Assembly: GCA_020723305.1 (NCBI GenBank)
Contig: DYJC01000009.1
Location: 1 to 64,000, forward strand
Direction of reading: 5' to 3'
DNA: 64,000 bases
Origin: Desulfosudis oleivorans
GTDB lineage: Bacteria; Desulfobacterota; Desulfobacteria; Desulfobacterales; SURF-7
In this document: positions 12,502 through 15,328 of the stretch, one piece after another
Position numbering within the stretch: the stretch's first letter is position 1
Layout of the letters: each line of letters begins with the position of its first letter
Program-made: the position numbers and the translations under genes
The notes under the pieces: model-generated
Told to the model about the DNA's origin: nothing
Database searches by the model: none
Seen by the model: only the letters and a program-made list of their open reading frames with translations

Positions 12502-12801
12502 TCAGGAACTACAGGCATCCGGCACAAACAGCCTGCGCAAAAATGGGATTGCGGAAAGCCATCCATAAAAAATAGCCTTGGCGCAACCCACCCCGGAACG
12601 CACGGAAATGGCCTGTGTGGGACAGTTCAGTGCACAGGCCCCGCACTCCATGCAGCCGTCCCGATCCATGAGCAAGGCCGTTCCGCTATCCTGATCAAAA
12701 ACCCCGTGAGGGCAGACCGTGGAGCAGGCCCCGCAACCCACGCACTTCTCCCGATAGTATTCCAGGGTGACAATATTTTCCAGATGGCGAAATTCCTTCA
12801 T
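12502..12801 (-). CDS. hgcB: Mercury methylation ferredoxin HgcB
   Basis: HgcB is the two-[4Fe-4S] ferredoxin that works with HgcA to methylate Hg(II). The 99-residue protein has two cluster motifs: CVGCGACSTVCPHG, and CMECGACALNCPTQAIS containing the HgcB-specific CMECGAC. A GVGCAKAI segment follows. The C-terminus ends DACSS, with one Cys, where the studied homologue has a Cys pair as I recall it. The start at 12801 gives an ATGA overlap with the end of hgcA, the usual coupled arrangement. A longer frame to 12849 would lie within hgcA and is not needed. The next gene is a deoxyribosyltransferase-like protein. Confidence 0.95.
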   Translation of the reverse strand: MKEFRHLENIVTLEYYREKCVGCGACSTVCPHGVFDQDSGTALLMDRDGCMECGACALNCPTQAISVRSGVGCAKAIFYGWLSAIPFLRRLFVPDACSS

Positions 12802-13994
12802 GACAAACCTCCCATGACCGTGTCTCCCCACCAGGCCCAAGTCAGCCAAAGGATTGCCGCAAGCACGAGCAAGGCTCCCTGCAGGGGCATATACCGACGC
12901 ATTTCCCTGTCCACGCCGGACAGGGATGTGAAAGGTGTTGATCCGGTGTAATGCATGGCAAACCAGGAGGCAAAAGCCGCACAGGCCATGAGTGCGGCCG
13001 CTCCCTCAGGCCAGGCTCTTCCAAGAAGCACAGCCAGGGCCAGTCCGGTCAACGAACCCGCGAGCAGTCCCTTTGCAGCAAATGCCTTCACGGGAATCTG
13101 CCGGAGAAAAGCAGGGACCAGGAACACACCGGTCAAAAAGCCCGCCACCACGGTTCCGAAAGCAGCGAATCCCGCCCCTAAAACGCCTGTAAGGCTGAAG
13201 CCGCCGGGACCGAGAAACGCAATGAACAGGCAGGCCGCCAGGGCCCAGGCCATAAATTTCCTTGCGACGTGTACCTCCACCAAAGCAACCGTCAACCGTT
13301 CTCTCAGCGGAAACCTGACCTTGCGCATTTCAGGCCCGGCCTGCATGCCGGCGTCCAGGAAGGTGGGCAGATCCTCAGCTCTCACCGGTCCAAATACCCC
13401 TGAAAATCCGCACAGTTTGGGCAGTTTGCGCACCGCCACCCCGGGTGCAGCGAGCTGTGGCAGAATCAAATCCCGATGGGTCACGATCTTATCCAGCCCT
13501 GCGGCCCTGACCCTTCCGGCCACCTCCTCAGCAGAAAAACTGCGTTTGCCGGCTGCGCACCAGACATTGATGCCGTAGGTTTCCACTACCAGAAGCCAGA
13601 AAGGGCGTCCGGCCAGTTCACGGCGCAGTTGATCGAAGGTCAGTTTGAAGTTGCAGGTGACCAGAACCGGACTTTGGGCATCCGGCTCGCCCAGGGCATA
13701 CAATCCAGGAGCGACCCTGTAATGATCCCGACCAATGCCTAAGCGCACGAGAGCGACGCCAATCCGGTCCATCAGGAACCATTGCGGAGATACCCGTGGC
13801 ACATTCCCGGCCGGTGTTGACATCCATCCTGTCACAAAGGGCCAGGCCCGCAAACCTGGCCGTTCTCCAGCCGCCTCCGGCGGCAGTTCATTTTTCGGGC
13901 CTCAGCAAGGCGCATCATCCGCCTGGGTCTTAGCCCCAGGCAACTCAACAAATGGGCTGGGCAATGGTTGTTTTTCCATATATGTTTTCATCAT
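12798..13994 (-). CDS. hgcA: Mercury methylation corrinoid protein HgcA, candidate selenoprotein
   Basis: HgcA donates a corrinoid-bound methyl group to Hg(II). The cap-helix motif NVWCAAGK (residues 143-150 here, with Cys146 the predicted cobalt ligand) is diagnostic. About five membrane segments fill the C-terminal half, with the family segment HYTGSTPFTSLSG. The frame is usually opened at ATG 13823 or TTG 13853. However, it continues upstream as residues ERPG before LRAWPFVTGW and then crosses an in-frame TGA at 13902-13904. It then runs 30 codons to an ATG at 13994 with AAAGG upstream. The TGA follows a Cys codon (DDAPC-TGA-GPK), and a SECIS-like hairpin lies just after it. I therefore annotate 398 residues with possible selenocysteine at 31. 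Alternatives are an upstream nonsense mutation or a shorter protein. HgcA identity is near certain; Sec decoding is a hypothesis. Confidence 0.93.
13858..13901 (-). promoter_or_regulatory. Candidate bacterial SECIS hairpin in hgcA
   Basis: Starting at the base after the in-frame TGA, the transcript can form a lower GGCC/GGCC pairing and a perfect six-bp upper stem, GCCGCC-GGA-GGCGGC (13870-13884). The GG of the three-base apical loop begins 24 nt after the UGA. A short apical loop with G, about 16-37 nt downstream of UGA, is the general form of bacterial SECIS elements. The stem also lies in a GC-rich region where hairpins arise by chance, so this is suggestive only. Confidence 0.5.
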
Positions 13995-14010
13995 TAAACC
14001 TTTACGTCAG

Positions 14011-14029
14011 GATTTCGATATACGAAATC
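14011..14029. promoter_or_regulatory. Palindromic candidate operator upstream of hgcA
   Basis: GATTTCG and CGAAATC are perfect 7-bp inverted arms around ATATA. The site lies 17-35 bp upstream of the proposed hgcA ATG, where a repressor would block transcription. The TTCG-ATATA-CGAA shape resembles operators of ArsR/SmtB-family repressors. No such regulator is encoded in this window, so the link is inference. Confidence 0.45.
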
Positions 14030-14044
14030 TCTGTATCTGAAAAT

Positions 14045-14238
14045 CACGATTTTACATATTTATCGAGGATTGACTGAAGTTTCCCTGATTTTTTCATTTT
14101 TTCCAGAGCAACAGCAAATTTTCCCCGCAAGGCTTCATCTGTTTTCAGACTGAATGCAAAATATTATGTTGCGCGTGTCTCCTTTTTGGCTGCCATGCTC
14201 AGAATCAGCACAAAAACAACTACCAGGAATTTTTTCAT
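14045..14238 (-). pseudogene. Decayed periplasmic solute-binding protein (family 3)
   Basis: The ATG at 14238 opens a typical signal peptide (MKKFLVVVFVLILSMAA) that stops after 24 codons. In a shifted frame, the sequence then reads as the last ~38 residues of an SBP family 3 protein (KTDEALRGKFAVALEKM, then SGKLQSILDKYV) and ends in a stop at 14045. The middle of about 180 residues is missing. This is the footprint of a large internal deletion of an amino-acid-type binding-protein gene. It lies directly upstream of hgcA, on the same strand, and downstream of the Old Yellow Enzyme gene. Confidence 0.8.
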
Positions 14239-14254
14239 CTTTCTTTTTCCTTTT

Positions 14255-15328
14255 TCACATCACAGGATAGTCGGTATAGCCTTTGGGCCCGGGCGTATAG
14301 AACGTAGCCATATCCACTTCGTTCACCGCAGCGCCGCTCTTCCATCGTTCCACCAGATCAGGATTGGCAATAAACGGACGCCCCACGGCAACGAGATCGC
14401 ATCTGCCCTCGGCCAGATCGCTTTCTGCACGCCCGGCATCGTAACCACCGGAGAGAATCAACTTCCCCTTAAACAGCTTGCGAAATGCCGCCTTGATGTC
14501 ATCAGGAACCACTGGAGCACCCATGGCCGAATGATCCACGAGGTGAACATAAACCAAACCGCAGGCGTTGAGCTGTTTTGCCAGGAAGGTGTAATCCGCT
14601 TCCATGGAATCATACACCGGCATATCGTTGAAAACCCCGAATGGCGAAAGGCGGATGCCCACCTTTTCCTTTCCAATGGCACCCATCACCGCCTCGGCTA
14701 CCTCCAGCACGAACCGTGCGCGGTTTTCAAGCGAACCGCCATAATTATCCGTTCGCTGATTGGAATTCGGGCGGATGAACTGTTCCAGCAGATACCCATT
14801 TGCAGCATGCAGCTCAACACCGTCAAAACCCGCTGTCACGGCATTCTTCGCACCCTGAACAAACTCCGCGATGGTGTTCTTGATCTCCTCTCCTGTCATG
14901 GCCTGCGGTACAGGAAGGGGTTTCATACCCTCGGCGTCCGTGTACATCTCCCCGGCAGCCGCGACAGCCGAAGGTGCCATCACATGCGCTCCTGCAGGCA
15001 GATTCAGCGGATGAGCAATCCGCCCGCAATGCATGATCTGGATGAATATCTTCGCTCCCTTGACATGCACCGCATCAGTGACCGCTTTCCATCCCTTTAT
15101 TTGGTCCTGGGAAAATATGCCCGGTATACGCGGATACCCCAGCCCATTTGGTGAAGGGGAGGTGCCCTCGGTGATAATGAGTCCTGCCGTGCCTCGCTGC
15201 GCGTAATACTCCATCATGAGCGCATTGGGAATATTCCCGGTAGCGCGACTGCGCGTCATCGGCGCCATGACCAGACGATTCTGAATTGTCTGATTGCCTA
15301 AAACGGTTTTTGAGTACAGAATTGACAT
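14255..15328 (-). CDS. Old Yellow Enzyme family ene-reductase (NemA-like)
   Basis: This FMN-dependent TIM-barrel oxidoreductase belongs to the alkene / N-ethylmaleimide reductase group. It has 357 residues from the ATG at 15328, which follows a strong AAGGAGG. Motifs include NRLVMAPMTRSRA near the N-terminus, the substrate/FMN-contact QIMHCGRIAHP, VELHAANGYLLEQF and the phosphate-binding AVGRPFIANPDLV. The classic His-x-x-Asn pair of the active site is present as HAANG. Such enzymes reduce activated C=C bonds and nitro groups with NAD(P)H; the physiological substrate cannot be told. It is the gene before the decayed binding-protein remnant and hgcA, with no clear link to either. Confidence 0.92.
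   Translation of the reverse strand: MSILYSKTVLGNQTIQNRLVMAPMTRSRATGNIPNALMMEYYAQRGTAGLIITEGTSPSPNGLGYPRIPGIFSQDQIKGWKAVTDAVHVKGAKIFIQIMHCGRIAHPLNLPAGAHVMAPSAVAAAGEMYTDAEGMKPLPVPQAMTGEEIKNTIAEFVQGAKNAVTAGFDGVELHAANGYLLEQFIRPNSNQRTDNYGGSLENRARFVLEVAEAVMGAIGKEKVGIRLSPFGVFNDMPVYDSMEADYTFLAKQLNACGLVYVHLVDHSAMGAPVVPDDIKAAFRKLFKGKLILSGGYDAGRAESDLAEGRCDLVAVGRPFIANPDLVERWKSGAAVNEVDMATFYTPGPKGYTDYPVM

Follow-up and report, generated by a model that had tools for sequence, protein, structure and literature searches.

The hgcA–hgcB locus

The window, that is the whole stretch of 64,000 nucleotides analysed here (Desulfosudis oleivorans, assembly GCA_020723305.1, contig DYJC01000009.1), encodes HgcA and, directly adjacent, HgcB (Table 1). 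From the ATG at 13994 to the TGA stop at 12798-12800 the translated hgcA frame on the minus strand is interrupted only once, by the TGA at 13902-13904. Sequence and translation agree with the first-pass annotation, which had followed the frame past this TGA for 30 codons up to the ATG and its upstream AAAGG, and had noted a cysteine immediately before the TGA (APC-TGA-GPK); the codons read TGC-TGA-GGC CCG AAA. Since the AAAGG lies 4 nt ahead of the ATG at 13994 and 7 nt ahead of a second ATG at 13991, the start of hgcA is uncertain by one codon.

Table 1. Features of the hgcA–hgcB locus (positions in the window)
Feature	Position	Strand	Remarks
hgcB, overlapping the hgcA stop (ATGA)	12502..12801	minus	NF040864; two CxxCxxCxxxCP motifs, GVGC with Cys, C-terminus DACSS
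TGT AGT, encoding Cys-Ser in place of the C-terminal Cys pair of HgcB	12508..12513	minus	comparison with L003, L082 and L071
hgcA frame with in-frame TGA, predicted Sec-HgcA	12798..13994	minus	398 codons plus stop; NF040863, PF03599
NVWCAAG motif of HgcA	13548..13568	minus	residues 143-149
SECIS-like hairpin GCCGCC-GGA-GGCGGC	13870..13884	minus	GGA loop from 23 nt past the TGA; weak support
In-frame TGA, codon 31, predicted Sec	13902..13904	minus	aligned with the second Cys of CCGP
TGC, Cys before the Sec codon	13905..13907	minus	first Cys of CCGP/CUGP; sequence and translation
Probable translation start region	13989..14003	minus	AAAGG 14003-13999, ATG 13994, ATG 13991; by eye

The assignment of the protein to HgcA made from the letters alone was confirmed by the family models: the core scores 409.4 bits with NCBIfam NF040863 (cut-off 275), and the neighbouring HgcB 124.7 bits with NF040864 (cut-off 99). 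Pfam PF03599 also matches the HgcA protein. The NF040863 alignment begins only at residue 65, and the model therefore does not cover the site of the TGA. A gene finder halting at the TGA would place the start of HgcA downstream of it, for example at TTG 13853. Further into the protein we find NVWCAAG, in agreement with the cap-helix motif NVWCA(A/S)G of HgcA, and an AlphaFold model contains five long helices (residues 230-261, 268-295, 305-324, 328-350 and 361-396), which would be the five transmembrane helices that come after the corrinoid domain in this family.

Upstream of hgcA, the interval 14060-14255 separates it from a gene that by eye is old-yellow-enzyme-like. It contains short broken frames, one of which resembles, again by eye, the tail end of a solute-binding protein. 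As the matching interval of locus L084 is ~0.5 kb longer, a gene may have been lost from the window at this point.

The TGA lies at the position of a conserved cysteine

The read-through HgcA frame was searched in 194 genomes, its own included, and 76 matches of at least 200 bits were obtained (hand count). Fifty of these loci, the window among them, were read at the TGA column. They comprise the top 30 matches, the 8 lower-ranking ones with an internal TGA, and 12 more. At this column there is Cys in 36 loci, TGA in 12 (including the window) and neither in 2, and as every match among the 76 listed with an internal TGA was taken, the share of TGA in the 50 is raised by this choice. TGA forms thus make up at least 12 of the 76 matches; none of the 26 unread matches contains a TGA, although several begin only past the column. 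Two further rows listed with a TGA, L004 and L031, have it at the gene end only. The two exceptions to Cys or TGA at the position of codon 31, judged by eye, are L057 (C-R) and L062 (C-G-C). A typical Cys-type HgcA reads DEPCCGPPAGP..ERPGY at the site. The Cys-Cys-Gly-Pro motif which the first-pass annotation had expected here is real, and the TGA of the window takes the place of its second cysteine.

The distance from the TGA to the N(V/I)WCA motif is nearly constant, at 112-113 residues both in the clade of the window and in the group reading CUGPK or CUGPR, while in 35 Cys forms the TGC or TGT lies 110-115, mostly 112, residues ahead of it. In a second Sec group the TGA precedes the motif by 108 residues in the six of eight members that were measured. 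This spacing, together with the recurrence in other genomes, indicates that the TGA of the window is not there by chance. The comparison was made without L070 (same contig as L017), L084 (same contig as L003) and L076; L028, L057 and L085 have no regex signature and L052, L054 and L062 no regex motif. For the folding comparison described below, L052, L054 and L085 were placed with the motif particular to each; L028 (CC), L057 and L062 were judged by eye.

The genome contigs were also scanned with a DNA pattern consisting of a TGA followed by the HgcA context, which selects TGA forms and is uninformative on the ratio of Sec to Cys. It returned 20 loci, 19 of them HgcA frames with CUGP; the remaining one, L076 in Mycobacterium lepraemurium, is a chance match of the pattern and not HgcA. 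Two of the 19 lie on contigs already found (L070 and L084), and L085 ends at a contig edge. Seventeen of the 19 are named for groups of Desulfobacterota, the others being a 'Deltaproteobacteria bacterium' and an 'uncultured bacterium'. The same TGA is present in a genome of the same genus (G003, locus L003, 90% identity), in other families, and in the named strains Desulfoprunum benzoelyticum DSM 28570, Desulfofustis glycolicus DSM 9705 and Pseudodesulfovibrio pelocollis SB368. One TGA form, L015, comes from a genome of another family assembled in a single contig (G021). In an alignment of 16 of the 29 known Sec forms (L073, for which no ATG was found, L085 and 11 other loci were left out), C30, U31 (written C), G32 and P33 are invariant and A28, P29 and K34 nearly so.

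Between the window (L002) and L003, the 27 codons after the TGA differ by six synonymous and no nonsynonymous changes. The 30 codons before it show three synonymous and four nonsynonymous differences. The stretch of 20 codons preceding the ATG behaves similarly (three and five), so that the substitution pattern before the TGA fails as a proof of coding. Seven other pairs of loci were mostly too divergent or too similar for substitutions before the TGA to be judged.

Selenocysteine machinery

The genome of the window (G000) is a draft assembly of 5.4 Mb. It contains the whole set of genes whose presence the first-pass annotation had proposed to check: selA (623.3 bits), selB (382.2 bits), selC, i.e. 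tRNA-Sec (73.3 bits), and selD (376.1 bits), each above its family cut-off. The selD gene itself is interrupted by an in-frame TGA within SGUAAK, a usual Sec site of SelD. The machinery required for Sec is therefore at hand. A tRNA-Sec scores above the gathering threshold in all 29 genomes with a TGA-HgcA, yet also in 5 of 14 control genomes; with an E-value of 1e-10 or better it is found in 28 of the 29, in 28 of 35 genomes with a Cys-HgcA and in 2 of the 14 controls. The one TGA-HgcA genome that misses this E-value, G205, has a borderline tRNA-Sec (47.9 bits against 47). As most Cys-HgcA genomes also possess a tRNA-Sec, its presence does little to separate Sec from Cys forms.

Folding downstream of the TGA

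The SECIS-like hairpin which the first-pass annotation had seen just after the TGA does exist, but its stability is within the range of shuffled sequences: at −11.6 kcal/mol (z −0.55), 59 of 200 shuffles were as good. The counterpart in L003 has 8 bp and −16.2 kcal/mol (z −2.37). Eight sequences, the window included, were folded, and a z of −2 was passed only by L003 and L015 (z −2.77); besides the window, the others gave −0.88 (L082), −0.52 (L071), −0.82 (L086), −1.37 (L051) and −1.71 (L055). In L015 and L055 the most stable fold is built on a stem other than the proposed hairpin. The loops AGGUCA of L086 and AGGU of L051 resemble AGGUCU, the loop of E. coli fdhF.

When the 54 nt after the site were compared with a synonymous-codon control, for which codon usage was pooled from the same stretches, the mean z was −0.84 for the Sec forms (n=29) and −0.17 for the Cys forms (n=35; Mann-Whitney p 0.014, which is optimistic as the rows are related). 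The 54 nt of the window itself gave a z of −0.09 (p 0.48) against this control. In an alignment of a 17-member group, 87.5% of the stem cells are paired, compared with 17.7-70.8% for slid and 86.5% for shuffled versions. A rival stem beginning at +1, immediately 3' of the TGA, has as many paired cells as the proposed one (90 of 102 each). In the group of four that includes the window, 90.6% of cells are paired, one slide reaching 87.5%. Covariation does not provide the proof of a SECIS in either group: it was no higher than in shuffles in the 17-member group, where both sides had changed in one cell over 16 distinct rows, and was absent from the four-member alignment. In an Rfam scan of 12700-14200, none of the seven matches reached its gathering score or belonged to a SECIS family. 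A SECIS downstream of the TGA of the window is plausible, not proven.

Sec groups in the HgcA tree

A tree was built from 63 HgcA sequences, 28 Sec and 35 Cys forms, leaving out L085, which was too short. The Sec forms fall into three groups of 4, 8 (L048-L055) and 16 members, with supports of 100/100, 99/94 and 100/99, respectively. From its sequence, the HgcA of the window belongs to the divergent clade of four, whose stem branch measures 0.96 under midpoint rooting and whose other members are L003, a Desulfobacteraceae MAG (L082, 77% identity to the window) and a Desulfonatronovibrio MAG (L071, 61%). Two genomes of the genus of the window, G001 and G002, possess Cys-HgcA on another branch of the tree, which suggests horizontal replacement. 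The tree needs at least two changes between Sec and Cys. We do not claim independent gains of Sec, since a topology that unites the 28 Sec rows in a single clade is not rejected (p-AU 0.665; likelihood 9.71 above that of the free quick search). The Sec site and the following 18 residues were left out of this test.

The motifs of the second group (L048-L055) are more varied and include CUP, CUGPPTSAGGG, CSU (L052) and RU (L054). The last of these has no Cys directly before the U, which means that the cysteine of the pair can disappear while the TGA remains.

HgcB variants

The C-terminal pair of HgcB is encoded by TGT TGT in L003 and L082 and by TGC TGT in L071, in each case giving Cys-Cys where the window has Cys-Ser. 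According to PMC7305189, loss of either tail cysteine alone is without effect on activity while loss of both cuts it by 95%. The HgcB of the window may therefore still work.

An hgcB gene was found at 28 of the 29 Sec-HgcA loci (all but L085), and all 28 encode Cys at the GVGC position. Conversely, in L013 and L063 HgcB reads GVGU, with an in-frame TGA at the position of the conserved Cys73, and HgcA has Cys. At all of these loci, Sec is thus confined to one of the two proteins. The hgcB of L018 ends in TGC TGA TAG while its sisters L022 and L058 end in two Cys codons; this could be read as one Cys with two successive stops or as a Cys-Sec terminus. By eye, a SECIS-like hairpin was not found at the usual distance from this end.

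Discussion

We consider it very probable that hgcA of the window is a selenoprotein gene in which UGA codon 31 is read as Sec, giving CUGP. An exchange of Sec and Cys at one position is the classical signature of a selenoprotein. The argument comes from sequence comparison, and three other readings have to be weighed against it.

The TGA might be a true stop, ending a 30-residue leader, with HgcA restarting internally at TTG 13853 or at ATG 13823 (residue 58) and lacking its N-terminal arm. In-frame starts are indeed available, and because the match to NF040863 begins at residue 65 the HgcA core would survive such a restart intact. However, the TGA sits exactly on the codon that is Cys elsewhere, preceded by the conserved APC and followed by GPK, and a leader peptide would hardly be expected to resemble the CCGP context across several families, which makes termination at this codon very unlikely. 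UGA could also be read through as an amino acid other than Sec, in a recoded genome or by means of a suppressor. That both hgcA and hgcB end in TGA, and that the sel set is complete, speaks against it, and we regard it as even less likely than termination.

The assembly consists of 47 contigs in draft state, and one might accordingly suspect gene decay, or an error of sequencing or assembly. This is difficult to reconcile with the same TGA occurring in G003, in named strains and in a genome assembled as one contig (G021), and with the absence of nonsynonymous differences from L003 in the 27 codons past the TGA. Such an origin of the TGA is the least credible of all.

If codon 31 is decoded as Sec, as we infer, this would be the work of the SelB and tRNA-Sec of the genome, probably aided by the short hairpin predicted just downstream. 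The product would carry Cys-Sec-Gly-Pro where most of the HgcA proteins read have Cys-Cys-Gly-Pro or a close variant. In the AlphaFold prediction made with the 16 Sec forms (mean pLDDT 78.5), residues 1-37 stay below 50 and confidence climbs from about residue 50; the alignment of 16 sequences is shallow and the low values may partly reflect a lack of data. The Cys-Sec pair is thus probably located in a flexible arm N-terminal to the corrinoid domain. An annotation halting at the TGA would lose this arm. The affinity of selenolates for mercury exceeds that of thiolates, and the selenolate would be the stronger mercury ligand on the arm. The cysteine of the NVWCA motif corresponds to C93 of ND132. 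The residue at the Sec site is distinct from the HgcA cysteine known from mutagenesis, namely C93 of ND132 (PMC11588087).

What the arm might do is suggested by HgcB, whose disordered tail with Cys94/95 can reach both the corrinoid and Cys73 and is proposed to transfer Hg(II) or methylmercury, as described by Cooper et al. 2020 (PMC7305189). By analogy with this Cys-Cys tail, the HgcA arm could bind and pass on Hg(II) or methylmercury; alternatively, it might keep the thiols of a partner reduced. One may go further and imagine the Cys-Cys or Cys-Sec arm as a second mercury-trafficking arm mirroring the HgcB tail and placed under the control of selenium through the UGA, a speculation that we think is probably wrong in this full form. 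With selenium, the cell would make HgcA complete with its Cys-Sec arm of high affinity; without it, termination at the UGA and internal restart would yield an armless HgcA, or no HgcA at all. Were this so, mercury methylation here would depend on the selenium supply at the level of translation. More generally, if the mercury methylase has such an arm, the formation of methylmercury could become linked to the supply of selenium.

The first-pass annotation knew of no description of a Sec-containing HgcA. This does not hold: the Sec-HgcA of the window, very probable as it is, is of a kind already known. Sec in HgcA is spoken of in two publications: a 2026 review (PMC13188914), which tabulates HgcA NF040863 as a selenoprotein with the motif CU and HgcB NF040864 with the motif GVGU, and a PNAS article of 2024 (PMC11588087), according to which there may be selenoproteins among the homologues of hgcA and hgcB. 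Both cite Haft & Gwadz 2023 (J Bacteriol 205:e00259-22) for Sec in these proteins. A term search of the main text of Zhang & Gladyshev 2008, which PMC13188914 also cites for HgcA, gave no match, and the main text of deep-Sep (PMC12013277) has none for HgcA, HgcB, mercury or CO dehydrogenase. What we add is the distribution of Sec-HgcA over three groups and several named strains, the prediction of a disordered arm, and the observation that the NCBIfam model of HgcA starts past the Sec site.

The candidate described here shares its family (NF040863) and its Cys-Sec motif with the Sec-HgcA of Haft & Gwadz 2023 as tabulated in PMC13188914, but belongs to the divergent clade with the stem branch of 0.96, with a linker that is one residue longer (NELPPEAAGERPGL). 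It has the family, the NVWCA motif and the CCGP position in common with Cys-type HgcA, most loci of which likewise have hgcB beside them; in contrast, these encode TGC or TGT where the Sec forms have TGA, and as a group show a weaker folding signal downstream. The Sec-HgcB of the GVGU type listed in PMC13188914, and represented here by L013 and L063, concerns the other half of the pathway and is also a case of exchange between Cys and Sec, whereas the HgcB of the window retains GVGC and the predicted Sec is found in HgcA instead.
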